A stretch of DNA of 64,000 nt from Sulfobacillus thermosulfidooxidans (lineage in GTDB: Bacteria; Bacillota; Sulfobacillia; Sulfobacillales; Sulfobacillaceae): NCBI RefSeq assembly GCF_001280565.1, contig NZ_LGRO01000001.1, positions 2,356,001 to 2,420,000 of the forward strand, read 5' to 3'. Shown in pieces: positions 4,195 through 18,953 of the stretch. The notes beneath the pieces are model-generated. The model was not told the origin of the DNA. It saw nothing but the letters and a program-made list of their open reading frames with translations, and ran no database searches. A program made the position numbers and the translations under genes. How positions within the stretch are numbered: position 1 is the first letter of the stretch; each line of letters opens with the position of its first letter.

Positions 4195-6629
4195 TTATAT
4201 GTGCCAAGAGGTAAAAAACGTGTGTAGTGAGGTGCTGAAACTCTGCCATACTGTACCAAACCCTAACAGGGATGACGAGTGGGAAATGGTCCAACTGGGA
4301 ATAGGCTGAGGAACAATCACGGTATGCCAGGCACTCACCAGGATTAAGCCACTAAGTGCGGTGAGGGTAGCGAATACAATACCTTTTTCCATAATGCGCT
4401 CCCTGTTGACTCGCGTGAATAGTCCTGATGTTAAGGATGGCCATGGATCATAAATTAGCATTAATGTGGTCGGGATCAGGAGGGAACGGACAATAAGCGT
4501 ATCCACTGATAAACTGACTCCGATAATGAGGCCGGTAAGCTGCAAAAATGGGACCGGGGTGGCGATGAGCGTGAGGAACGTGGAAGCGATGATGACACCG
4601 GCTCCTGTGATACTACCACCGGTTTCGCTAAGCGCTGTACCAATAGATTCCCGGGTGATGTCCTTGCCGATATCATGGACGAGTAGAATTTCGTAATCCA
4701 ACGATAAAGCCATTAAGAGACTTACGACGACGATAATCATCGGGAAGAGAAGAATATACTGAGATTGTAATGCCCAGTGCTGAGCAATTCGCATGCCTGA
4801 TAACAAAATGGTGAGATCAAAAGACGCTGCCAAAATGCCTGCCATCCATCCTTTCATTAAATATCTCATGGCAATAATCGTGCCGAATATTCCCAAGATC
4901 ATGACGCCTATTAACCCATGTATTAATCCTGTATTGGCCGTCGCGGTATAGGCCCTGTTACCGCCTGTCATGCCAAATTGCCAATGCTTTGGCAAATGCT
5001 CGTTGACGCCATCGATTATTTGGGTCCGCGGCAAAGGAGAGGGTCCTACAATCCCGATTAACACGACATGTTGTGAATAATTGATAAGCTGGTCGGCGGG
5101 AGAACTTGCGGGAAGAGCCTCGGCGGATAACTTCGCTAATGATGAGGGTGGCAAAAGGAGTGTGGGACTCGTGATCCGGTCATGAGGAGCTTCTTCTTGT
5201 ACGATATGGGTTATGTCAGCGACAGCTTGCCATGTGCTTACAGAATGAAATGACGTGGGAGGCTGGATAACCAGGGCATCCTGACTACCGGGTGCCATGG
5301 GAGGAGTTGTTTTTTCAATGCGAGATACAGTGCACTGTGTTGAGGAAGCAAGGATAAAGAATTGACCGGCGTGCTGAGAGTGAATGAAGGATAAGGTCGC
5401 GACAGGGCAAAAACGATGAGAGCAACCATAGCCGAAAGTGCCCACTGAGGTATTTTCTTTAAATTCTTTTGCAACCAGAAGTACCCTGCATCCAGCCAAT
5501 CCGATGCCGATGTTTTCCATGACACCCAGTGCATCAAAGCGGGCCATCTCGGCAAAATGGGATAAGTAATCCAACGAACCGTAGCGTAAGTCGTAAGAAC
5601 AGCCACCCAAGCACTGATGACTAAAGATACGCTAAGGGAATGCGGCAGAAATAACAAACCCGTTAAAACGGTAATCAGAACAGTGGCGGAAATCGAAATC
5701 GCTTTCAAAACACTTCGGCGGGTTGCGATATCGGCCTGTTTAGCGGCTTCTCTCCGTTTTTGTTCTCATTGGTTTACCATATGATATTCGCGGCGAAAGC
5801 GTAAAATCAAAAATACGCTATAGTCGATACTTAGTCCCAAGGTGAGAAGCTCCATAATATTGACCGAGTATTCCGACAAATGACCATCGGCCGTCAAAAG
5901 TACCATCAAGGCGGATGCGTAAAGCGTCGCTAAAGCACCGCCCATTAAGGCCAAAATGGTCAGCGACAAAGACCCTAAAACCGCCATTAACAAGATCATG
6001 GCGATGCCCAAGGCATAGATTTCTGTGCGTGACAAGCTTTGTTCCACAGCCTGATTGAGCCATGTGTTAGCCGTATTGGCGTCTAAGGCGGTGACATGGT
6101 CAGCGGATGGTAAATGCATCACCCACGTGGAGGTGGCCTGAGAGTACCCGTGATGAGGGGCTTGAATGATTGTTGCGGCATGGGTTAAGGCATAAAACGT
6201 TAAAGACGCAAGCGGAATGGAACCATGGGTTTGGTGCCATAAGTGCACCAATGTGGACGTGGGAGCATCAACGAGCCAACTGCTTGCCTGATTATAGCTA
6301 ATGGGGCCAAGAGACACTTGTTCTTGGGTTAGCACACTCATGTGATCGGCCCATAACAAGGCATTTTTCGAACTTAACAGTTGACTGGTTTGAGCGTGGG
6401 CTCCCAGCTGACTAGCTGCTGGCCACAACAAAAATGCCAGCAACCAAGCCGAAAGGAAAACAACGGGGGTCCGTATGGGACGAAGCTTGGAAAACAGGGA
6501 TGCGATGAAAATGACGAATATCAGGCCAATTACACTAAGACCAGTATCTTGGGCAATGGTACTGGCCTCAGGACCGGTGAGATGCAATATGACGCCCCAC
6601 ATCTGTATGGTTTGGTATGCGTTCTGCAT
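4195..6629 (-). pseudogene. MMPL/RND-type membrane transporter, broken by a stop and a frameshift
   Basis: Three pieces add up to one MMPL-type transporter. The N-terminal piece (start ATG 6629, or 6722) holds the first membrane helices and the conserved GLSIDYSVFLILRFRREY segment. It ends at a TGA (5766-5768) and reads on in the same frame (EQKRREAAKQ...SVLKAISISATV), exactly what follows RFREEL in the family. Near 5310-5315 the frame must change by -1 in a run of six A (coding strand) to continue as TPPMAPGSQDALVIQPP. The last part carries the second helix bundle with ALSLDYEILLVHDI, the repeat of the GLxxDY motif. The family exports lipids or drugs using the proton gradient. With two lesions the gene is probably dead. 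Confidence 0.75.
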
Positions 6630-6832
6630 AATTCTCACTCTCTGTGGCCGGAAACGGTGGATCTTTGCCGTCTGAAGAATGCTATTAGTGTACCATGGTT
6701 TCAATCTATGAGGATCTCGCACTATGCAAAAAGCCGCGGGATAGGGTCACCGGGAAACGCTGGCATCATTTTGAGGACACTACTGCCTAAAAATTGCCTG
6801 CCAGCCATCAAGATTCACTACGGTTTTTTATG

Positions 6833-7484: not shown

Positions 7485-7514
7485 TTGCAGGAATTTGTTG
7501 TTTGTGAATAGAAT
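7485..7514 (+). promoter_or_regulatory. predicted sigma-A-type promoter of the sugar operon
   Basis: TTGCAG (7485-7490) and TAGAAT (7509-7514) are spaced by 18 bp in a very AT-rich region. Transcription would start near 7520, inside the dyad at 7516-7531. This is a consensus-based prediction only. Confidence 0.45.
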
Positions 7515-7515
7515 T

Positions 7516-7531
7516 AGTAAAACGCTTCACT
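7516..7531 (+). promoter_or_regulatory. LacI-family operator candidate
   Basis: AGTAAAACGCTTCACT is an imperfect palindrome with the central CG typical of LacI-family sites; 12 of 16 positions match its reverse complement. It covers the expected transcription start, 25 bp before the ATG of a gene that itself encodes a LacI-type DNA-binding domain. This suggests autoregulation of the whole operon. Confidence 0.55.
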
Positions 7532-7556: not shown

Positions 7557-10500
7557 ATGAATAAAGCGTCAAAAGCTGTGCGGATTGAAGATGTAGCTAG
7601 GGTGGCGGGCGTGTCTCCTACGACCGTTTCCTATGTCATTAATAATCGCGGAAACGTATCGGAACGCACAAGAGAAAAGGTTTTACAAGTCATCAAAGAA
7701 TTAAACTATCATCCGAGTATGGCTGGTCGAGGGTTGGCGAGTAAAACGGCTCTTGCCCTTGGAATTTTGGTGCCGCGGATCGACAGCCTTTCCGACCCGT
7801 TTTTCGCGATGTTATCATCTGGTTTTATGTTAGGTGCACAACGGCACGATTATCAAGTTGTGTTGCTTCCGTCGGAAACCACGGTTAATGACATTATTAA
7901 TTCGATCCAACGTAAACGTATCGATGGAATTCTGCTGTTGGAAGTGGAACAAGATGATGTCCGGGTCAAGCAACTTTATCAATCCGGAGTGCCGCTTTTA
8001 CTATTTGGTCGTTCGGAATTGCCTGTTGCATGGCTTGACGTGGATAACATGCAAGGCGGGATGATGGCCACGCGCCACTTGTTGGAACTGGGCCATCGAC
8101 GCATCGCCCACATTGCTGCTCCACAAAAATATCTTTATGGACGTTTACGTTGTATAGGATATCAAGAAACGCTGCAACATTTCGATGCGTCCTTAAGTGC
8201 CATTATTCGTGAAGGTGATTTGACTATGGATGCGGGTTATCGGTTAACTCGCGAATTGCTTGTCAAAAATCCGCGGCCGACCGCGATTTTTGCAGCGAGT
8301 GACTTGATGGCCATTGGTGCCATTCGGGCAGCGACCGACATTGGACTGCAAGTTCCCCGCGATTTGTCCGTTGTGGGTTTTGATGATAGCCCTTTGGCCC
8401 ATGAATTTATTCCGGCATTAACAACCATTGCCCAACAACCGCAGCATTTAGGGGAGATGTTGGCGGAGCGGCTAATAAATCTCTTAGAAGGAGAAATAGC
8501 GCGCCCGGAACTTTTTTTGCCACAACTCATTGTGCGACAAAGTAGTGCTGTAAATCCAACGGGACCGTTATATCAACGTTCTTCTGAGAAGATTACTCTC
8601 AAAACCGGACCGTCATTCAGTCTTTGGTCGGATGACGGTTTTATTGAGAGACGCTCCGGGAATCAAGGAATATACGCGGCGGATACACATTGGCTCTCTC
8701 ATTACATGATTTACATAAATGGGATAGCACCTAAACCCGTCGCGGTTGATGTCCAACAAGATCAGTTTGTGATGCGCTATGTTGTTGCCTTGAAAAACGG
8801 CAGCCTCGCAATTCGGCGAACACTCCGGTTTTTAGCTCAGGCATTAGTTGACCGATGGGACTGGAAACGGTGGGGTGATCGCGAGAATGGGTGGATGTTT
8901 GAACTTGAGCATGCAGTGGATTTTCGTGACATCTTTGAAATGCGAGGGTTTCCGGTAGAATCGCCTGGGTTGATCTATTCGGATCTCGTGGGGAATTCTG
9001 GAGAACGTCACCAGTATCATGGACGCGACGACCGTATTCGGATGTTTTCTCTTTCTGTAAGCCCTGAACCTATAACAAGCGAAATTGGATCAAAACGGTG
9101 GGTTGTTGATCCTCATGAGGGCAATGGGAGTTTTGAGATTCGGATGAAATGGGAATTGCCACCAGCCTTACATTCATCGATTCAGCGTGTGTCTGGTCAA
9201 TGGCCAAAGGTCATCGTTGAAAATGAAGAGTGGCAACACGTGTTGAACCAGTCCCAAGACGATGTCGAAATGTTACAGACGGATTTTGGCCAAGGTCCCG
9301 TGTTAGTGGCAGGTCTTCCATGGTTTGGGACGTTATTTGGTCGCGATGCCATCTTAAGTGCTTATCAATTGTTGGTATTTCGTCCAGATTTGGCTGAATC
9401 GACACTAGCGACTATGGCACACTTTCAAGGTCATGTCATAGACCCTGATCGATCGGAAATGCCGGGAAAAATGGTTCACGAAGTAAGATACGGGGAGTTG
9501 GCGAATCTTGGCCATGTGCCCTTTGGACGTTATTATGGTTCGGTTGATGTGACACCTCTTTTTATTTTGCTGCTGTATGAAACGTGGAAACGAACAGGAA
9601 ATTCTGCATTACTTGACCGGTTTTTATCCGTAGCCCGTGACGCAATGAACTGGCTCTGTCAGGATATTGATGAAGCCAATCACGGCTTGTTAATGTTTCA
9701 TGCCTCAAACCAAGCTGGATTGTCCGTTCAGTCGTGGAAGGATTCGGCCGATTCCATGGTCTATAGTGATGGCACATTTGCCCAATCCCCTTTGGCTGTT
9801 GCGGAAGTTCAAGGTTATGTTTTTCAGGCCTTAAACGCGATGGCTGAGCTTGAAGAAGCTAGCGGAGATGCGCAAGTTGCTATTCATTATCGAGGAATGG
9901 CTCAACGAGTACAAGAAAAGTTCCATGAACATTTCTGGCTGCCAGAACAGCAATATTATGCCATGGCCATTGACCGGCACGGAAATCCGCTGGATGTGAT
10001 TAGTTCGGATCCTGGGCAATGTTTATGGACAGGGATTATCCCTAAACCTTTTCAAAAGGCGGTGATCGATCGACTGATAAGTCAAGATCTGTTTTCAGGA
10101 TGGGGAATCCGCACCTTAAGCGCTCGCGAGCGGGCTTACGATCCGTACAGTTATCATCGGGGAAGCGTTTGGCCCCATGATACGAGCATTATTGTGGCCG
10201 GGATGTGTCGATCGGGCTATATTCATGAAGCCGCCATAATCGCAAATGCTCTGGTTTCCGCGGGCAATTTTTTTCCAAAACGGAGAATGCCCGAATTATT
10301 TTCAGGCATGCCTCGAGAACGGGACAACGATCGGCCTATGCCCTATCCATTAGCCTGTGCACCCCAAGCTTGGGCGGCAGCCTCGGTGTGGTTGATGTTG
10401 CAGAGCTTGTTGAAGATAGACATCAATACACCTGCGCGAACTTTGGTGGTCGGGACATCGCCTGCAGAGTTAGGACGCGTGACAATTCACGGTCTCAAAG

Positions 10501-10592
10501 TTGCTGATGGTGAATTTGCGTTGGATATTGATGCTAATCAGGTTCGAATTTTAATGTCTCCTGAAAACTGGACTGTTGTGTTAGCTAAGTGA
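7557..10592 (+). CDS. LacI-family regulator fused to a glycogen-debranching (amylo-alpha-1,6-glucosidase-type) enzyme
   Basis: One uninterrupted 1,011-residue frame, GAGG a few nt before the ATG. Residues 1-60 are a LacI helix-turn-helix and hinge (IEDVARVAGVSPTTVSYVIN at 10-29). Residues 65-335 are the periplasmic-binding-protein-like sensor, with GVPLLLFGR, TRHLLELGHRRIAHI and SDLMAIGAIRA. From about 345 a second protein begins: an N-terminal debranching domain (FSLWSDDGFIERR, GIYAADTHWLSHY), then a six-hairpin catalytic domain with GLPWFGTLFGRDAIL (about 585-600), SWKDSADSMVYSDG and SYHRGSVWPHDT (about 868-879). Each half has its family's usual length. LacI domains repress until a sugar binds; this enzyme family cleaves alpha-glucosidic branches or short oligosaccharides. 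The fusion would couple sensing and hydrolysis of the same sugar, which is inference. No stop or start signal separates the halves. Confidence 0.9.
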   Translation: MNKASKAVRIEDVARVAGVSPTTVSYVINNRGNVSERTREKVLQVIKELNYHPSMAGRGLASKTALALGILVPRIDSLSDPFFAMLSSGFMLGAQRHDYQVVLLPSETTVNDIINSIQRKRIDGILLLEVEQDDVRVKQLYQSGVPLLLFGRSELPVAWLDVDNMQGGMMATRHLLELGHRRIAHIAAPQKYLYGRLRCIGYQETLQHFDASLSAIIREGDLTMDAGYRLTRELLVKNPRPTAIFAASDLMAIGAIRAATDIGLQVPRDLSVVGFDDSPLAHEFIPALTTIAQQPQHLGEMLAERLINLLEGEIARPELFLPQLIVRQSSAVNPTGPLYQRSSEKITLKTGPSFSLWSDDGFIERRSGNQGIYAADTHWLSHYMIYINGIAPKPVAVDVQQDQFVMRYVVALKNGSLAIRRTLRFLAQALVDRWDWKRWGDRENGWMFELEHAVDFRDIFEMRGFPVESPGLIYSDLVGNSGERHQYHGRDDRIRMFSLSVSPEPITSEIGSKRWVVDPHEGNGSFEIRMKWELPPALHSSIQRVSGQWPKVIVENEEWQHVLNQSQDDVEMLQTDFGQGPVLVAGLPWFGTLFGRDAILSAYQLLVFRPDLAESTLATMAHFQGHVIDPDRSEMPGKMVHEVRYGELANLGHVPFGRYYGSVDVTPLFILLLYETWKRTGNSALLDRFLSVARDAMNWLCQDIDEANHGLLMFHASNQAGLSVQSWKDSADSMVYSDGTFAQSPLAVAEVQGYVFQALNAMAELEEASGDAQVAIHYRGMAQRVQEKFHEHFWLPEQQYYAMAIDRHGNPLDVISSDPGQCLWTGIIPKPFQKAVIDRLISQDLFSGWGIRTLSARERAYDPYSYHRGSVWPHDTSIIVAGMCRSGYIHEAAIIANALVSAGNFFPKRRMPELFSGMPRERDNDRPMPYPLACAPQAWAAASVWLMLQSLLKIDINTPARTLVVGTSPAELGRVTIHGLKVADGEFALDIDANQVRILMSPENWTVVLAK

Positions 10593-10655
10593 CAGCCTCA
10601 CATTTTTACAGTTTATTCAGTAAGAAAATTCGCAACTGTTAAAGGAGTGAAAAAA

Positions 10656-11927
10656 ATGAATCGACGTGCCAAGATGATGGGAACAATTACTGTTGTTTCG
10701 AGTATTGTATTGTCAGGATGTGGATCAACGTCTCCTACCTCGGCAAATGCCAAAGGCCCTGTCACAATAGTGGTAGCCAGTTGGACTGGCACAAATGTTA
10801 CCAATGGAATTATTGATCATCAATTAGAGGAATTTAACAAAACGCACCCGGGAATTCATGCAGTATATCGTCCCATTTCGGGTAATTATGAAACCATTCT
10901 CAAAACAGAATTCGTAGCCGGGGATGCTCCTGATATCATTACGCTAAATAATGGTGGTCAGGCTCCGACATTTGAAGCTGAGGGAGCGGTCATACCTTTA
11001 AATGCTTATATCAAGCAGTCACATTTTTCTTTGTCAGATTTTTATCATGGCGCGCTAGACATGTTCGTTTCAGGGAATACCGTTTATGGCATTCCGCGCG
11101 ATCAATCCCCTTTGGCGTTGTACTATAATCCGGCTTTATTTAGAGCTGCCGGAATTAGCGGTCCACCTAAAACGTGGGCACAATTGGTAGCCGACGCGAA
11201 AAAACTAACCAATCCTGCTAAAAAACAATACGGATTGGTTAATACCCCCCAAGAACCTCGTTGGGCTGAGTTTATTTATCAGGCGGGGGGTTCCGTGATG
11301 AATGCCAACATGACCAAAATGACGTTAAATACGCCTGCAGCCCTGAGAGGATTTTCGTTCTATGTGAATTTATACCGTAGTGGCGTGGCCCAACAACCTT
11401 CTCAAGTGGGGGCTACATGGGGCGGCCAGGCTTTAGGTATGGGACGGGCAGCAATGACGTTGGAAGGAGCTTGGGCTATTCCCTATCTTCAACAGACATA
11501 TCCCCACACACCTTTTGCTATCGCTCCGTTGCCCAAAGGTCCCAAGAATAATGTGTCTCTCGATTTTCCTACAGCATGGGCTATTACTAAAGACAGCAAA
11601 CATCCCGAACAGGCATGGCAAGTTATTAAATATTTAACGGGAGTGGGACAGGCCCAATGGGTTGAGCAAGGAGGTCTGGTCACTGTGCGGAAGTCGCTGA
11701 TCAATATGCCGTATTATCAGAAACATCCGATTTACAAGAATATCATTGCGTCACTACCCCACGCTGTACCTTGGAATTTTCCTGTCGGATTTGACCAATA
11801 TGTCAATACGACTTTGTCCAACGTGACATTGAGAGCGGTGGATGGAAGTCTATCGCCGCAAGCAGCGTTAGAAATTTTGCAACAACAAGGAGAAGCCATA
11901 TTGAAAGATCATGGTGGTCAGTCATGA
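10656..11927 (+). CDS. sugar ABC transporter substrate-binding lipoprotein (MalE-like)
   Basis: A 423-residue lipoprotein. The ATG at 10656 has AAAGGAG 8 nt upstream; a GTG three codons earlier overlaps the Shine-Dalgarno site and is less likely. The signal peptide ends in the lipobox LSGC with Cys22. The mature part has the family-1 extracellular solute-binding fold, including ADDAPDI-like GDAPDIITLNNGG, VYGIPRDQSPLALYYNPALF, PKTWAQLVADAKKL and the C-terminal FPTAWAITKDSKHPEQAW. It captures oligosaccharides outside the cell and hands them to the permeases encoded next. It lies 63 nt after the fusion gene, and its stop overlaps the next start. Confidence 0.88.
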   Translation: MNRRAKMMGTITVVSSIVLSGCGSTSPTSANAKGPVTIVVASWTGTNVTNGIIDHQLEEFNKTHPGIHAVYRPISGNYETILKTEFVAGDAPDIITLNNGGQAPTFEAEGAVIPLNAYIKQSHFSLSDFYHGALDMFVSGNTVYGIPRDQSPLALYYNPALFRAAGISGPPKTWAQLVADAKKLTNPAKKQYGLVNTPQEPRWAEFIYQAGGSVMNANMTKMTLNTPAALRGFSFYVNLYRSGVAQQPSQVGATWGGQALGMGRAAMTLEGAWAIPYLQQTYPHTPFAIAPLPKGPKNNVSLDFPTAWAITKDSKHPEQAWQVIKYLTGVGQAQWVEQGGLVTVRKSLINMPYYQKHPIYKNIIASLPHAVPWNFPVGFDQYVNTTLSNVTLRAVDGSLSPQAALEILQQQGEAILKDHGGQS

Positions 11928-12823
11928 CCACCATGCTTTCCACACCTACCTGGCGAAAATCAGAGCAACGGGCTGCGTATTTGTTCACGGCCCCCACAAT
12001 GGCCCTTTTAATGTTATTTTCATTAGGTCCTGCTGCTTATGCGTTTTATCTCAGTGCGTTTTCATGGAACCTGCTTAATAAAATGCATTGGGTCGGATTG
12101 GCTAACTTTACTCAGCTATTGACCATGCCACTTTTTTGGACGGCGGTTAAGAATTCGGTGATATTTGCTGCAGTGGTTATGCCGACACAAACCGTCGTCG
12201 CCCTCATATTCGCGGTAATATTGAACCAAAATCTACCGGCTCGAGGACTGTTTCGATTGGCTTTCTTTTTCCCTTCTATTAGTTCATCGGCGGTGACATC
12301 GTTGATGTTTTTGTGGATTTTTAATAAACTGGGACTCTTGAATGGCTTTCTAAATTTTCTCTTTCATATTTCCGGCCCTGATTGGATAGGCGACCCTAGG
12401 TTTGCACTTTCCGCCATTATGATTCTCAATATATGGAGTACTTCGGGTTATTTTATGGTGGTATTTCTTGCGGGACTCCAAGCGATTCCAAGAAATTTAT
12501 ATGAAGCTGCTGCTATCGACGGAGCCAATGGTTGGCAACGATTTTTTCACATTACCGTACCTTTGCTGAGACCGGCGACATTTTTTATCGTCGTGATGGG
12601 ACTGATTGGGACGTTACAAATGTTTGATCAAGCGTTCATCATTTCTGGCGGTACCGGAGGTCCATTAAACTCTACGACTACGATTGCTCTATTGATTTAT
12701 CAGTTTATTTTTTCGTATGGCCAAGTGGGTTTAGGTGCCGCGGCGACGGTGTTCTTGTTTGTTGTCGTTTTGTTGGCGACCATTGCTACAAATCATTGGC
12801 TTGGAAAACCGATTGAATATTAA
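11924..12823 (+). CDS. sugar ABC transporter permease, MalF/UgpA type
   Basis: A 299-residue inner-membrane protein with six predicted helices after a short cytoplasmic N-terminus. The ATG overlaps the binding-protein stop by 4 bp (ATGA), showing translational coupling. The ATPase-contacting EAA loop is clear: YEAAAIDGANGWQRFFHIT near residue 200. AAYLFTAPTMALLMLFSLGP at the start is typical of MalF/UgpA-type sugar permeases. It pairs with the product of the next gene to form the channel. Confidence 0.88.
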   Translation: MTTMLSTPTWRKSEQRAAYLFTAPTMALLMLFSLGPAAYAFYLSAFSWNLLNKMHWVGLANFTQLLTMPLFWTAVKNSVIFAAVVMPTQTVVALIFAVILNQNLPARGLFRLAFFFPSISSSAVTSLMFLWIFNKLGLLNGFLNFLFHISGPDWIGDPRFALSAIMILNIWSTSGYFMVVFLAGLQAIPRNLYEAAAIDGANGWQRFFHITVPLLRPATFFIVVMGLIGTLQMFDQAFIISGGTGGPLNSTTTIALLIYQFIFSYGQVGLGAAATVFLFVVVLLATIATNHWLGKPIEY

Positions 12824-12841: not shown

Positions 12842-13684
12842 ATGGTAGGATCACAAACGCGCGGTATTGGCGGATGGATTTTACGAGCTTTTTATCTTTT
12901 GTTACTGACGACAGGTGCTTTTGTTATGATAATTCCTTTTCTTTGGAGCGTGTCGACAGCACTAAAGCCTCTAGGAGAGTCCGTTGCTTTTCCACCTATT
13001 TGGTGGCCTCATCCAATAATGTGGAATAATTTTGTTATCACATGGAAAATTGTGCCTTTGGCGAGGTGGTTTTTTAATAGTCTCTTGGTAGCTTTTGTTG
13101 TGGTTCTGGGTAATTTGCTTTTTGACTCATTAGCCGGATACGCGTTGGCCCGTATTCGATTTAAAGGGCGATCTCTCATTTTCTTAAGCATTATTTCCAT
13201 GCTGATGATTCCGTTTCAAGCGATTATGCTACCTACTTATATTTTGTTACGGGACCTCGGGCTTATTAATACCTATTGGGGAATGATTCTTCCCACGATT
13301 ATTTCCGCTATGGGTGTTTTTCTCATGAGGCAGGCCTTTTTAGGCATACCCGCAGAAATAGATGAAGCGGCCATCATTGACGGCGCAAGTCGGTGGCGAA
13401 TGTTTTGGCAGATTGCTTTGCCCATGGTTAAGCCGAATTTATTGACGCTCGCCTTATTAACATTTCTGGGATCGTGGAATAATTTTCTGTTGCCATTGTT
13501 GGTTGCCAATAATCCCAAACTCTGGACCCTTCCCCTGGGTATGGTGATGTTTCAGCAACAGTACTTCACTAATTGGCCGTATCTCATGGCTTCTGTCGTC
13601 ATGGCAACGATTCCGACGGCCATTTTATTTTTGCTGTTTCAGCGCTGGTTTGTCGAAGGCATATCTACCACCGGTATTCGATAA
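12842..13684 (+). CDS. sugar ABC transporter permease, MalG/UgpE type
   Basis: A 280-residue membrane protein with six predicted helices, starting at an ATG 19 bp after the previous gene with GGAGG upstream. The EAA loop is DEAAIIDGASRWRMFWQIA near residue 180, and PFLWSVSTALKP near residue 35 and the C-terminal FVEGISTTGIR are hallmarks of MalG-type subunits. No ATPase gene is in the operon. In Firmicutes such importers commonly share an MsmX/MsmK-type ATPase encoded elsewhere, and the same is inferred here. Confidence 0.88.
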   Translation: MVGSQTRGIGGWILRAFYLLLLTTGAFVMIIPFLWSVSTALKPLGESVAFPPIWWPHPIMWNNFVITWKIVPLARWFFNSLLVAFVVVLGNLLFDSLAGYALARIRFKGRSLIFLSIISMLMIPFQAIMLPTYILLRDLGLINTYWGMILPTIISAMGVFLMRQAFLGIPAEIDEAAIIDGASRWRMFWQIALPMVKPNLLTLALLTFLGSWNNFLLPLLVANNPKLWTLPLGMVMFQQQYFTNWPYLMASVVMATIPTAILFLLFQRWFVEGISTTGIR

Positions 13685-13711: not shown

Positions 13712-15916
13712 ATGAATGGTGAGGAACTTTCCGTGCTATCCCGGACATCTTCTCTTCGAGGGCCATTTGTTGTGGGGGGAACGCGTGCTTATCTCATTGG
13801 AGACATGGATGGTACATTTCCTGCTTTAGGGGAACATATTCCCCGGGAGATGGCAGGGCTATGGCGTCATCCGAATAAATTGTTGCAAAATATTTGGCTG
13901 GGATGGGCTTATTCTGGGGCTGATCCCTTATGGATAACATCTGATGGATTTCACCGGGGGCCATGGTTTGTGGATCAGCACTTTACTCTCACAAACACTC
14001 TTGAGATCATGAGACGACTTTGGATCCCGGATGATGAGCCTGGATTAATGATGGAATTGACAATTTTCAATCGTGGGAATAAAGATGAACGTCTTGAACT
14101 TATTATGGGATTTCTATCTGACTTACACCCTGGTTGGCTTGATAATCAACCACGTGGTTATGATCAGGTCTATGAAACGCAACATCAGGTGATATTCCAA
14201 AATACCTCATCCTCATGGTGGGTGCAGTGTCTGTCGAATCCGCCAGGACGTATAGTGGTTAACGATACGGCACTCCCCCCAAAAGTTTTTCCTGAATGTG
14301 CCACGGCATCAATCCATCATGATTTAATAGTGCCGTGTGGAGAAACAAGGTCGTTATTGTATTGGATTGTGGGAGGCGATGGACAGCCCACAGTTGCCTC
14401 CTTTCCCGAAAACCACCACGCGTGGTGGAATATTAAATCGGATCGATATCGACAAATTGATGCGCTATCTCAGGTTGCTCTTCCGGACGCACAGCTAATG
14501 CATGCGATGCAGTGGACAAAGTACCAAACGGATTGGCTTATGCGGGAAGTTTCGGACATTGGTCGGGGTTTGGGAGCAGGAATGCCAGAATATCCCTGGT
14601 GGTTTGCGTGCGACAGTCACTATGCACTCAAAGGGGTATTGACTTTTGGGCAACATGAGTGGGCTAAAGACACCCTCGCGTTGTTGAAAAATGTTTCCCA
14701 AGACTGTAATGGCGATGGCCGTATCATCCATGAAGTTAGTACAACGGGCGTGGTATTTAATCCCGGAAATATGCAAGAAGCTCCGCAATTTTGTGACGCC
14801 GTGTGGGAAACTTTTTTGTGGAGCGGAGATGAAACATGGCTACGAAAAATGTATCCGGCAGTGGCTCAAGCGATGGCATGGGTGACTCAGGCAGATTCCA
14901 GCGGACGCGATCTGGCTCCGGGATATGGCATTATTGAGATTGAAGATCTAAATCTGCGCATGATCGATACCGCGGTATACACCTATAAGGGGTTGATGGC
15001 TTACGCGCAAATGGCCCACATTTTGGAAGGACCGGCGAAAGCGCACCCCATCCTGAAACGCGCGAAGCAGCTTAAATATCGCATTTTGACAAACTATTGG
15101 ATTCCCGAGGAAGGATTATTCGGTGACTTTCTCGCGTTTTCGTCGGACATTGATCAGCGCGTGAACACCTGGATGAAACGAGCCAAGTTTCGTGGAAACT
15201 TTCGGGCTATGAGTCACTATCGCCATATCAAGCACTATAAACGACCTGGCGGCGAAGACGTTTATCTTATGAAGAATTGGATTATCAATACTCCCATGGA
15301 AACCGGAATGGCTCCCAATTCTTGGGCTCAGCGTGCGTTAAGGCGAATGCGAACCTCGGAAGAATTTCATGGTCCTTATGGATTGTATCTTTCCGGCATC
15401 GACCGTGACGAGATGATGACCATTTCGACTGGGGTACAAGCCGTGGCCGAAATTCAATACGGCAATGCCGATGATGCGTTACAGTGGATCCAAGAAATTG
15501 CCAAAACCATTGATATCCGATCGCCTGGAACGATATCAGAAATGTCGCCTGATTATGGATGCTTTGTGCAAGCATGGACGGCCTATGGATTATGGTACCC
15601 AGTGGTAACAGGATTTTTTGGTATTCATCCCAATGCGGCAGCATCGTCGATATACTTTGAACCCTTTATGCCATCGCAATGGAACCAGGCCAGCCTATTC
15701 AAAATTCGGATCGGTACAAATTTCCTTGATTGTGAGTTTACACGGTCGTCAAATAATGAGATCTATAGGATTGTTACTACGCAACCATGGACAGTCACAT
15801 TGGGACAAGGGCTTGAAGTTATCAACGCGGACGGTGCTCGCTATAATGCACACCGCATTTATCTTACTAAGGCGGGGGCATCGGTAATGGTGAGAAAATC
15901 CCGTCCAGATAGATGA
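13712..15916 (+). CDS. six-hairpin glycoside hydrolase, debranching-enzyme-like
   Basis: A 734-residue cytoplasmic enzyme (no signal peptide) closing the sugar operon; AGGAGGT precedes the ATG at 13712. An N-terminal beta-sandwich region (about 1-260, with MELTIFNRGNKDERL) leads to an alpha/alpha-barrel catalytic region containing GAGMPEYPWWFACDSHYAL, DGRIIHEVSTTGVVFNPGN, FCDAVWETFLWSGDETWL and SPDYGCFVQAWTAYGL. This layout resembles GH-G/GH-L clan alpha-glucosidases and amylo-1,6-glucosidases. The exact family and bond are uncertain. Because it follows an oligosaccharide importer, its substrate is probably the imported sugar. Two different hydrolases of similar architecture in one operon suggests a branched or mixed-linkage substrate. 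Confidence 0.75.
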   Translation: MNGEELSVLSRTSSLRGPFVVGGTRAYLIGDMDGTFPALGEHIPREMAGLWRHPNKLLQNIWLGWAYSGADPLWITSDGFHRGPWFVDQHFTLTNTLEIMRRLWIPDDEPGLMMELTIFNRGNKDERLELIMGFLSDLHPGWLDNQPRGYDQVYETQHQVIFQNTSSSWWVQCLSNPPGRIVVNDTALPPKVFPECATASIHHDLIVPCGETRSLLYWIVGGDGQPTVASFPENHHAWWNIKSDRYRQIDALSQVALPDAQLMHAMQWTKYQTDWLMREVSDIGRGLGAGMPEYPWWFACDSHYALKGVLTFGQHEWAKDTLALLKNVSQDCNGDGRIIHEVSTTGVVFNPGNMQEAPQFCDAVWETFLWSGDETWLRKMYPAVAQAMAWVTQADSSGRDLAPGYGIIEIEDLNLRMIDTAVYTYKGLMAYAQMAHILEGPAKAHPILKRAKQLKYRILTNYWIPEEGLFGDFLAFSSDIDQRVNTWMKRAKFRGNFRAMSHYRHIKHYKRPGGEDVYLMKNWIINTPMETGMAPNSWAQRALRRMRTSEEFHGPYGLYLSGIDRDEMMTISTGVQAVAEIQYGNADDALQWIQEIAKTIDIRSPGTISEMSPDYGCFVQAWTAYGLWYPVVTGFFGIHPNAAASSIYFEPFMPSQWNQASLFKIRIGTNFLDCEFTRSSNNEIYRIVTTQPWTVTLGQGLEVINADGARYNAHRIYLTKAGASVMVRKSRPDR

Positions 15917-16191
15917 TATGAAACTTCATAGGATATAAAAAATATCTTTTGGATATCTTCGATGGATAATGCAATCAGAAAATAGTTGGAGAGTCTTACA
16001 CTTTAAATAGGCAATTTTATATTTACTTACGATCCGATAGCCCACGTAATAACTTTCTTTTGCCTTTTCTATAATCAAAATTTGATAAAAAAGCAATTGC
16101 GATAAATTTGGACGATATTCCATTGCGAAGCGAGAATTTTGCGCCAATATTGGTTAAATCAAGACTGAATATCAACGAGGTGAAAATTCTG

Positions 16192-17613
16192 GTGTGGAAC
16201 CGAGAGTCTCAAGATGACAGTATCTTGAATGCCCTACGTGCATTGATGGCATCTCAAGGGGATGTTGATTACATCGAAATACGTCTTGAATACAACGAAT
16301 CTACAAATCTGGAGACGTTAAATGATCACATACGCCATCAGGCGCATGAGGTCGAAATAGGGGGAAATGTTCGCGTCTTTCACCAAGGAGCAGTGGGATT
16401 TGTCCATTTCGACGGTTGGGACAATTTACCGCGTCACATTCAGGACGCCAAATTGCTGGCCAAGTGGCAGAATCCCTCCGATTTCCCTGGGGTATTTCAG
16501 GATTCATCGGCTCCGGCAGATACTGTCTATTCGGTTCAGCGATTAGCAACCCGGGAAAATCCGTTAGATGTTTCAGTGGAATCCAAAATCCATCTCTTGC
16601 TGCATTATGCCGAGATCGCGCACACGACACATCCCCAGGTGAAATCGGTTACGGGGCGTTATTTCGATCGTTACCGTCATCTATGGTTTGCCGATAGCCG
16701 AGGAAGTGCCATTGAGCAAGAAAAACTCGATCTTGGCGGTAATATCATCGTCATGGCACGTAATTTCAACGGCGTTGCCCAGCGCGGAGTCTCCTTTGGG
16801 TCGTCAAACGATTTCGGTGTGTTCAGAAAACTGGACGATGCCGTCAAAGATGCTGCAAGGAGCGCCGTGGCCTTATTAGATGCACCCGAAGTGGAAGGTG
16901 GAGAATACACGGTTGTGGTCGACCCGTATCTTGCCGGTGTTTTTGCTCACGAAGCTTTTGGCCATTTGAGTGAGGCGGATGGTCAGGTGGGAGATGTTGG
17001 CCTTTTGGACCAGATGGTCTTAGGACGACAGTTTGGCCCTCCGAATTTGCATATTTATGACACAGGCAAGGACATGGGGAGCCGGGGTTATCTTCCTTTT
17101 GATGATGAAGGTATGCCGGCGCAAGACGTGGACTTGATCAAAGACGGAGTTTTGGTCGGTAGACTGCATTCCCGCGAAACTGCGGCGTATATGGGCGAGC
17201 GGCCAACAGGCAACGCGCGCGCTTTACATTACCGTTTTCCCCCTATTGTGCGGATGCGTAATACCGTCATTGCACCCGGTGATACGGATTTTGAGGATCT
17301 TTTTCAGGACATTAAGCGAGGCATTTATGCCAAGGGCACTCATGGGGGACAAACGAATGGGGAACTCTTTACATTCCTTGCCGCGGAAGCCTATCTCATC
17401 GAGGATGGCAAGATCACGCGGCCTGTTCGAAATGCTGTCCTCACCGGCAATGTTTTTACTACCCTTCAGCAAATTACCGCGATTGGTAATGATTTTACTC
17501 GCTATGAAGGCGGAGGAGGATGTGGCAAAGCTGGACAAATGCCATTACCAGTAAGCCATCATGCCCCATCATTGCGGATTGAACGCTGCATAGTAGGAGG
17601 TCGTGGACGATGA
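16192..17613 (+). CDS. tldD: TldD-type metalloprotease subunit
   Basis: A 473-residue member of the TldD/PmbA (peptidase U62) family. The frame is open from a TTG at 16108, but the GTG at 16192 is preferred: GAGGTG lies 9 nt upstream and it matches the family's usual N-terminus. The zinc motif HEAFGHLSEAD (HExxxH plus downstream acid) lies near residue 255. The glycine-rich C-terminal stretch EGGGGCGKAGQMPLPVS is also typical, as are KGTHGGQTNGELFTF and GNARALHYRFPPIVRM. TldD is the catalytic half of a TldD/TldE heterodimer that cleaves unfolded or modified peptides in the cytoplasm. Its stop overlaps the TldE start, so the two are co-translated. Confidence 0.9.
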   Translation: MWNRESQDDSILNALRALMASQGDVDYIEIRLEYNESTNLETLNDHIRHQAHEVEIGGNVRVFHQGAVGFVHFDGWDNLPRHIQDAKLLAKWQNPSDFPGVFQDSSAPADTVYSVQRLATRENPLDVSVESKIHLLLHYAEIAHTTHPQVKSVTGRYFDRYRHLWFADSRGSAIEQEKLDLGGNIIVMARNFNGVAQRGVSFGSSNDFGVFRKLDDAVKDAARSAVALLDAPEVEGGEYTVVVDPYLAGVFAHEAFGHLSEADGQVGDVGLLDQMVLGRQFGPPNLHIYDTGKDMGSRGYLPFDDEGMPAQDVDLIKDGVLVGRLHSRETAAYMGERPTGNARALHYRFPPIVRMRNTVIAPGDTDFEDLFQDIKRGIYAKGTHGGQTNGELFTFLAAEAYLIEDGKITRPVRNAVLTGNVFTTLQQITAIGNDFTRYEGGGGCGKAGQMPLPVSHHAPSLRIERCIVGGRGR

Positions 17614-18953
17614 TAGACAACCTCATAGCTAGAGAAGAACATGAAGGTCCCATTCCTTCTTGGCGTGCGGGTGAAGTCGGGGATAGTACGGAGATTAAGC
17701 GGTCAACGTGGTCTGTGGAAATAAAGAGGGGACAGCCTCCCTTGGTTCAGCATGGAACGGAAGAGGTGCGTGCTGTACGTGTGATTGACGATGGACGATT
17801 AGGATACGCTTCCTCTCGAACGCAACCTTGGACACAACTCAAAAACGAAGCCTATGCGGCGGCAAAAACTGGCCCGGATACCTGCTTGGACGAACCTCTC
17901 TTAGAGGAAAAAACAGGATATTCTTCTTCTAAATGGGATCCTTCGTGGATGTCGTCAATGATGGGGACGGCCCGGGAGTTGTATGACAGGCTCGAGCAGT
18001 TGGATTCCCGGTTTCGTCCGGCGGTGTCGATTTCCTATGAGGAAACACAAACGCACCTGAGTAATTCGTTGGGAGGGCATGTGGGCTTCACCCGGGGATA
18101 TTGGTCAATATCGGCCGGGGGGCGTCTTGTGAGTGATACAGATTTTCACGCTGTAACCGAGACGCGACTGGGACCGGATGCGTTGTCCAAGATCTCTGAA
18201 TTGGGAGATGTGGTGGAACAACGGTTTCGATTAGGACAACCCATTGTGCCTGTACAACCGGGAAAATATCCTGTTGTCTTTCTGCCAACGGTCGTGATGA
18301 GTCTCTTAACGCCGATTTTAACGCGGCTATCCGGCCCTACTTTGTTGGCTGGAAGTTCACCATGGGACGACAAAATTGGTCAATCCGTACTTTCCCCCTT
18401 ATTAACGCTGACGAGCGACCCCACTATTTCGGGTGCGCCCCGTACGGGTCCATGGGATGACGAGGGCACGTCTACTCGGGCCATCTCATTAATTGAACAA
18501 GGCATCTTAAAACACTTCATTCTTGATCGAGATAGCGCAAGACGCATAGGGCAAGAACCCCAAGGCATGGGATATCGCCGCAATCCTGGCGTGCCTCCAG
18601 CTTCCTTACCCGCCAATTTGATTGTATCTGGGGGAGCGGGAAATCTGACTGAGTGGGGAAATCGTTTTCCCATGTTGCTTGTATTAAATGGGTGGATCGG
18701 CGCTCGTCCTACCAATCCTATTCGGGGCGATATCGCGGGAAATGCCAGTGAGCTTTATGTCATGGAACATGGGGTTATAACCGGCCGTGCCAAAAATGTT
18801 GTGGTCAGTCTCAATGCCCTGGATGCTTTAACCCATCAATTGTTAGCAGTGGGAGATGACAATCAATGGGTGCCGCAAGGGATGATGACTGTGGCCCCAG
18901 GCTTTTTACCCCCTTTGTTAATCGATGGGGCGGATATTCAAGTCCGGCAGTAA
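17610..18953 (+). CDS. tldE: TldE/PmbA-type partner of TldD
   Basis: A 447-residue protein starting in an ATGA overlap with tldD. It has the PmbA/TldE layout and lacks the HExxxH zinc site. Family features are SWSVEIKRGQPP-type N-terminal strands, LLAGSSPWDDKIGQSVLSP (about residue 250) and GAPRTGPWDDEGTSTRAISLIEQG-like sequence near residue 275. The C-terminus carries NPIRGDIAGNASELYVMEHG. In studied bacteria TldE forms a heterodimer with TldD and opens a channel to its active site. Here it leads directly into a peptide-import gene set. Confidence 0.88.
   Translation: MIDNLIAREEHEGPIPSWRAGEVGDSTEIKRSTWSVEIKRGQPPLVQHGTEEVRAVRVIDDGRLGYASSRTQPWTQLKNEAYAAAKTGPDTCLDEPLLEEKTGYSSSKWDPSWMSSMMGTARELYDRLEQLDSRFRPAVSISYEETQTHLSNSLGGHVGFTRGYWSISAGGRLVSDTDFHAVTETRLGPDALSKISELGDVVEQRFRLGQPIVPVQPGKYPVVFLPTVVMSLLTPILTRLSGPTLLAGSSPWDDKIGQSVLSPLLTLTSDPTISGAPRTGPWDDEGTSTRAISLIEQGILKHFILDRDSARRIGQEPQGMGYRRNPGVPPASLPANLIVSGGAGNLTEWGNRFPMLLVLNGWIGARPTNPIRGDIAGNASELYVMEHGVITGRAKNVVVSLNALDALTHQLLAVGDDNQWVPQGMMTVAPGFLPPLLIDGADIQVRQ

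Follow-up and report, generated by a model that had tools for sequence, protein, structure and literature searches.

A LacI-type repressor joined to an amylo-alpha-1,6-glucosidase family enzyme in one conserved chain of Sulfobacillus and its relatives: a predicted self-regulating sugar switch

The window analyzed here is a stretch of 64,000 nucleotides from Sulfobacillus thermosulfidooxidans, and positions are counted from its first letter unless otherwise stated. On its plus strand, at 7557–10592, a single open frame extends from ATG to stop and encodes a LacI-glucosidase fusion protein of 1011 amino acids. The protein opens with a LacI-type helix-turn-helix (HTH) and hinge (residues 8–62; 7578–7742; PF00356, 73 bits), which is highly conserved among fusions and is followed by a LacI sugar-binding core (residues 63–334; 7743–8558; PF13377, 120 bits) that keeps the canonical effector residues R198, D249, D276, and Q293. 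A linker (residues 335–347; 8559–8597), part of a segment of low confidence in the predicted model (residues 335–369), leads into a GDE_N_bis β-sandwich domain (residues 348–545; 8598–9191; PF14742, 64.6 bits), whose β-strands are present in the model. The (α/α)6 glucosidase domain that comes next (residues 546–950; 9192–10406) is recognized from Pfam, the predicted model, a structural match, and its invariant carboxylates, while the C-terminal β domain (residues 951–1011; 10407–10589) is recognized from the secondary structure of the model.

A sequence-only reading of this locus had claimed that one chain, in a continuous frame, contains a LacI regulator and a debranching-family enzyme, both complete, and both parts of the claim are borne out. 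Pfam matches, all far over the curated cut-offs, place the LacI HTH at residues 10–54, Peripla_BP_3 at 173–330, GDE_N_bis at 348–515, MGH1-like_GH at 597–896, and GDE_C at 579–944. In the LacI half PF00356, PF00532, and PF13377 exceed their cut-offs, so that HTH, hinge, and Peripla_BP core are all present; the enzyme half contains both Pfam domains of its family, GDE_N_bis and GDE_C, in the right order and with the full fold. Searches of the PDB returned LacI/PurR/CcpA-type regulators as the best matches to residues 6–335 and the amylo-α-1,6-glucosidase 7vma as the best match to residues 370–957 (E 3e-83). In the predicted model of the whole protein (mean pLDDT 80, pTM 0.63), residues 1–335 superimpose on CcpA, PurR, and LacI with Z of about 32, and comparison with 7vma gave Z 42 over 592 aligned residues, covering the entire enzyme half. 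Every sequence criterion tried places the window protein in the LacI family and its enzyme half in the amylo-α-1,6-glucosidase family, “debranching enzyme” being a family assignment for the fused glycosidase. The frame is free of stops and frameshifts, and a continuous fusion frame is also present in relatives that are as little as about 36% identical, which excludes a local sequencing error. An internal start that would yield two proteins is likewise not apparent: codons 335–370, read by eye, contain neither an in-frame ATG nor a sequence resembling a ribosome-binding site.

The glucosidase half appears equipped for catalysis. Residues D597, E642, E647, D664, D729, D732, E750, D875, and E913 are invariant in all 30 complete fusion proteins, and the active-site motifs are common to the fused enzyme and 7vma. 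The latter is a demonstrated amylo-α-1,6-glucosidase of Thermococcus gammatolerans, and the enzyme of the same strain debranches maltodextrin at α-1,6 bonds (PMC9142091). D729 or D732 together with E913 are candidate catalytic carboxylates, with presumptive acid and base roles; PDB profile alignments to YgjK and mannosylglycerate hydrolase, through which these roles might have been mapped, did not cover both residues.

A sugar ABC-importer operon begins with the fusion gene. Downstream on the same strand lie a solute-binding protein (SBP) of a sugar importer (10647–11927; PF01547, 133 bits), two permeases, one UgpA/MalF-like (11924–12823) and one UgpE/MalG-like (12842–13684), and an MGH1-like glycosidase of 734 amino acids (13712–15916; PF22422, 34.5 bits). 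This second glycosidase is a distant relative of the fused one; that it arose as a recent duplicate was considered and rejected, the similarity being weak. Where no contig end intervenes, almost every fusion adjoins an SBP and two permeases, either codirectionally or divergently with shared operators. The remaining operon neighbors differ among loci (GH15, GH13, MGH1-like, GH127/88-like), and for this reason the substrates of the fusions may differ as well.

Several features in the vicinity were recorded in their own right. On the minus strand at 4195–6722, two neighboring open reading frames of 471 and 318 amino acids both match MMPL proteins; their combined length is about that of a single MMPL transporter, and they may be the parts of a broken gene. 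Directly after the sugar operon, at 16108–18953 on the plus strand, are a TldD/PmbA-type metallopeptidase pair, then an SBP_bac_5 gene and at least one permease. Elsewhere in the genome a second fusion copy, 40% identical to that of the window (G000:C1:2531529-2534447; locus L050, 11509–14463, minus strand), is divergent from an SBP-permease-permease operon and has a decayed LacI pocket; on its other side are genes for a patatin-like protein and an MMPL protein.

The regulatory half is accompanied by a recurrent DNA element. Of 32 fusion loci, 30 have a palindromic core, TNAANCGNTTNA, with a central CG, close to their start. The remaining two are L089, whose contig extends only 56 bp upstream, and L099, whose fusion is internal to an operon. 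In the window, the predicted operator AGTAAAACGCTTCACT (7516–7531, plus strand), palindromic around a central CG and some 34 bp upstream of the ATG, fits this core; the sequence-only reading had proposed an operator at this position, a proposal strengthened by the fact that almost every homologue has the same palindrome at its promoter. It is the one operator in the window, fitting the core in its relaxed form, and the sole perfect match, the next site having 3 mismatches. Across 529 kb, 45 of the 51 occurrences of the core are at fusion promoters, a count that is descriptive because the pattern was derived from these very sites; control patterns centered on GC, AT, and TA gave 10, 14, and 3 sites in all, and the concentration of the operator at fusion promoters is far beyond these controls. 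Scanned genome-wide, the relaxed core yielded 140 matches versus 102 for the reversed control and is too loose to define a regulon. Where the fusion and the importer genes are divergent, the stretch between them contains two operators spaced by 13 bp. A possible -10 box, TAGAAT (7509–7514, plus strand), read from the sequence, adjoins the window operator, which would then lie downstream of this box and ahead of the start codon, a classical position for a repressor; a promoter and terminator scan of the fusion’s region gave promoters at chance level.

Four fusions from the order’s second family have an additional operator about 2.5 kb inside the GC-rich fusion gene (L060, 1939; L062, 11607; L063, 4355; L064, 11823), and in three of these four genes the sole TTA leucine codon falls within it. 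This suggests that the intragenic operator is selected, for DNA looping in the manner of lacO2.

About 30 further full-length, unbroken fusions were found across the order, in many genomes of the window’s genus, of its family, and of a second family, and the fusion is also present in named Sulfobacillus records and related MAG records; its carriers, Sulfobacillus and its relatives, are acid-loving bacteria. Among 398 genomes sampled across the phylum, only the window’s own had full fusions, the one other occurrence being a contig-end fragment in the same family; elsewhere in this sample the enzyme is free-standing. The window’s own genome encodes just two GDE_N_bis proteins, both fused. Counted from R327 to K349, the linker spacing comes to 23 residues in 28 of 31 fusions; the other three have 26. 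This constancy suggests that the halves are packed or coupled rather than loosely tethered. In close pairs with measurable synonymous divergence, dN/dS is about 0.1–0.2 across all modules, as expected of purifying selection on each of them; the window’s own pair has saturated synonymous sites. Sequence comparison thereby confirms a real, old, and conserved fusion and no assembly accident. Two sets of records deserve separate mention. The complete genome of Sulfobacillus thermotolerans Kr1 (CP019454; L069 / L093) has a frame break inside the LacI core, away from the junction, and keeps tandem operators. Four fusions in records titled “Actinomycetes bacterium” (L084, L085, L086, L096) form a clade within the Sulfobacillales-type fusions, which means either a wrong label or a moved gene.

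The effector pocket of the LacI half has not been kept uniformly. R198 and D276 of the window protein are, by motif alignment, what we take to be the equivalents of R197 and D274 of LacI. The R197 equivalent is arginine in 21 of 23 lone LacI proteins, in all nine LacI proteins adjacent to a GDE gene, and in 17 of 19 other fusions. In sublineage A (L050, L065–L068) the R197/D274 equivalents are Y/E in 5/5 proteins, and in sublineage B (the four “Actinomycetes” records) they are W/G in 4/4; HTH, operators, and active site are intact in both despite the loss of the pocket. The sequence-only reading had offered two possibilities, a timer in which the enzyme destroys the inducer at the operator and an active site that serves as the sensor; sequence is compatible with either, and the comparative data bear on both. 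Since the window protein retains its effector residues, it most likely still senses through the LacI core, and the kept pocket favors ordinary LacI sensing combined with an active enzyme. Sublineages A and B may sense by something else or not at all, and because DNA-binding domain, operators, and active site were kept when the pocket was lost, the enzyme is the obvious candidate for the sensor there.

An unfused version of the operon exists in other bacteria. In Tumebacillus, Alkalicoccus, and Alicyclobacillus the row is LacI, GDE, SBP, permease, permease, where LacI and GDE are two neighboring genes; in two unfused operons (L102, L116) a GH13 enzyme comes next after the permeases, and an adjacent unfused LacI-GDE pair also occurs in three members of the window’s family. 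The glucosidase tree unites the Sulfobacillales-type fusions in one clade, the frame-broken S. thermotolerans gene among them, while the fusions of two Bacillota MAGs (L089, L099) are set apart on starred branches. The L099 row (SBP, permease, permease, MGH1-like glycosidase, fusion) contains the same parts as the window operon. A single origin of the fusion was weakly rejected at a borderline p-AU of 0.044, and the LacI tree did not resolve a single from a double origin; the L089 and L099 fusion is probably separate from the Sulfobacillales type.

These features can be combined into a working model, which we hold with about even confidence, of a bifunctional, cytoplasmic, self-regulating repressor and α-glucosidase that removes its own inducer. 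Without sugar, a LacI dimer would occupy the operator at 7516–7531 and hold the operon down. An imported oligosaccharide, probably an α-1,6-branched or isomalto-type gluco-oligosaccharide, or its product would bind the LacI core and free the repressor from the operator, whereupon the attached glucosidase would hydrolyze the oligosaccharide, both feeding metabolism and clearing the inducer. Because the inducer would be removed by the attached enzyme, induction should be self-limiting, and repressor and enzyme would stay at 1:1. In the sublineages with a lost LacI pocket, the sugar signal would probably come from the enzyme domain. The model draws on architecture, conservation, operator, importer linkage, and the fixed linker; from these we infer repression, its relief, inducer hydrolysis, and coupling between the two halves.

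Other readings of the same data were weighed. DNA binding might instead be governed by substrate or product bound at the active site of the glucosidase, leaving the LacI core as a scaffold for dimerization and transmission only, and the fixed linker length and the history of sublineages A and B are what such an arrangement would lead one to expect. Yet the pocket is canonical in the window protein and most other fusions, its loss is also compatible with another ligand or with repression no longer relieved by sugar, and some LacI-family cores, such as that of CcpA, function without a classical sugar site, all of which makes this reading unlikely. Only slightly less doubtful is the broader proposal of a transcription-factor class with a glycoside hydrolase active site as sugar sensor, in which the enzyme, once fused, took over sensing from the LacI pocket, entirely in the two sublineages where that pocket has decayed.

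Two neighboring operon genes could also simply have merged, with regulator and enzyme working independently and gaining co-expression alone, an account to which the unfused gene order in the three Bacilli and the unfused LacI-GDE pairs within the same family lend themselves. Against it, the fusion has persisted throughout an order with a single linker length, the window’s own genome lacks a free GDE_N_bis protein, and an enzyme copy number bound to the level of a repressor is unusual for a catabolic enzyme; we think this account improbable. Far less credible is a pseudoenzyme, retained to bind a ligand or for its structure. Loss of catalysis is frequent among regulatory enzymes, but here every carboxylate checked is invariant and the motifs are those of the active 7vma. 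That the fusion is a sequencing or assembly artefact, or two proteins made from an internal start, has a negligible probability. The frame break in strain Kr1 might speak for it, but is not at the junction; about 30 genomes contain independent continuous frames that refute an artefact as a general explanation, and no start signal was seen in the linker.

On the self-limiting model, the fusion would combine a natural repressor with an enzyme able to break down its probable inducer; it is conserved order-wide, and an unfused operon elsewhere is available for comparison. It would permit a direct test of how a new sensor evolves in a regulator, and of whether the active site of a digestive enzyme can serve as the sensor of a switch, and could provide a ready scaffold for self-limiting sugar switches. 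The sequence-only reading had not recognized LacI/glycosidase fusions as a described class, and literature searches on such fusions and on Sulfobacillus LacI yielded no account of one in open-access papers; since the searches covered these papers only, the novelty is provisional.

The fusion shares features with several known systems. Like the LacI/GalR repressors LacI, PurR, CcpA, and RbsR, it contains HTH, hinge, and Peripla_BP core and has a palindromic operator with central CG and apparent local autoregulation, but where those proteins end in a short C-terminal tail, the fusion carries an entire glycosidase. Its enzyme half resembles amylo-α-1,6-glucosidases and archaeal-type GDEs (7vma; PF14742 and PF06202) in the N-terminal β-sandwich, the (α/α)6 domain, and the active-site motifs, and differs from them in having a LacI repressor in front and a function predicted from sequence. 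The Bacilli operons of Tumebacillus, Alkalicoccus, and Alicyclobacillus (LacI-GDE-SBP-permease-permease-GH13) have a homologous gene order with LacI and GDE adjacent, although as two separate proteins and with a GDE branch distinct from the Sulfobacillales fusion clade. BirA and NadR are bifunctional enzyme-repressors. PutA is a moonlighting repressor (PMC6978683), whose likeness to the fusion is in working only and not in homology. In all three, one chain is both a metabolic enzyme and a repressor of its pathway genes, as is predicted for the fusion, but their DNA-binding domains and enzymes are different. The fusion instead joins a complete LacI protein, with its own ligand site, to a glycoside hydrolase and therefore has two potential sugar sites.
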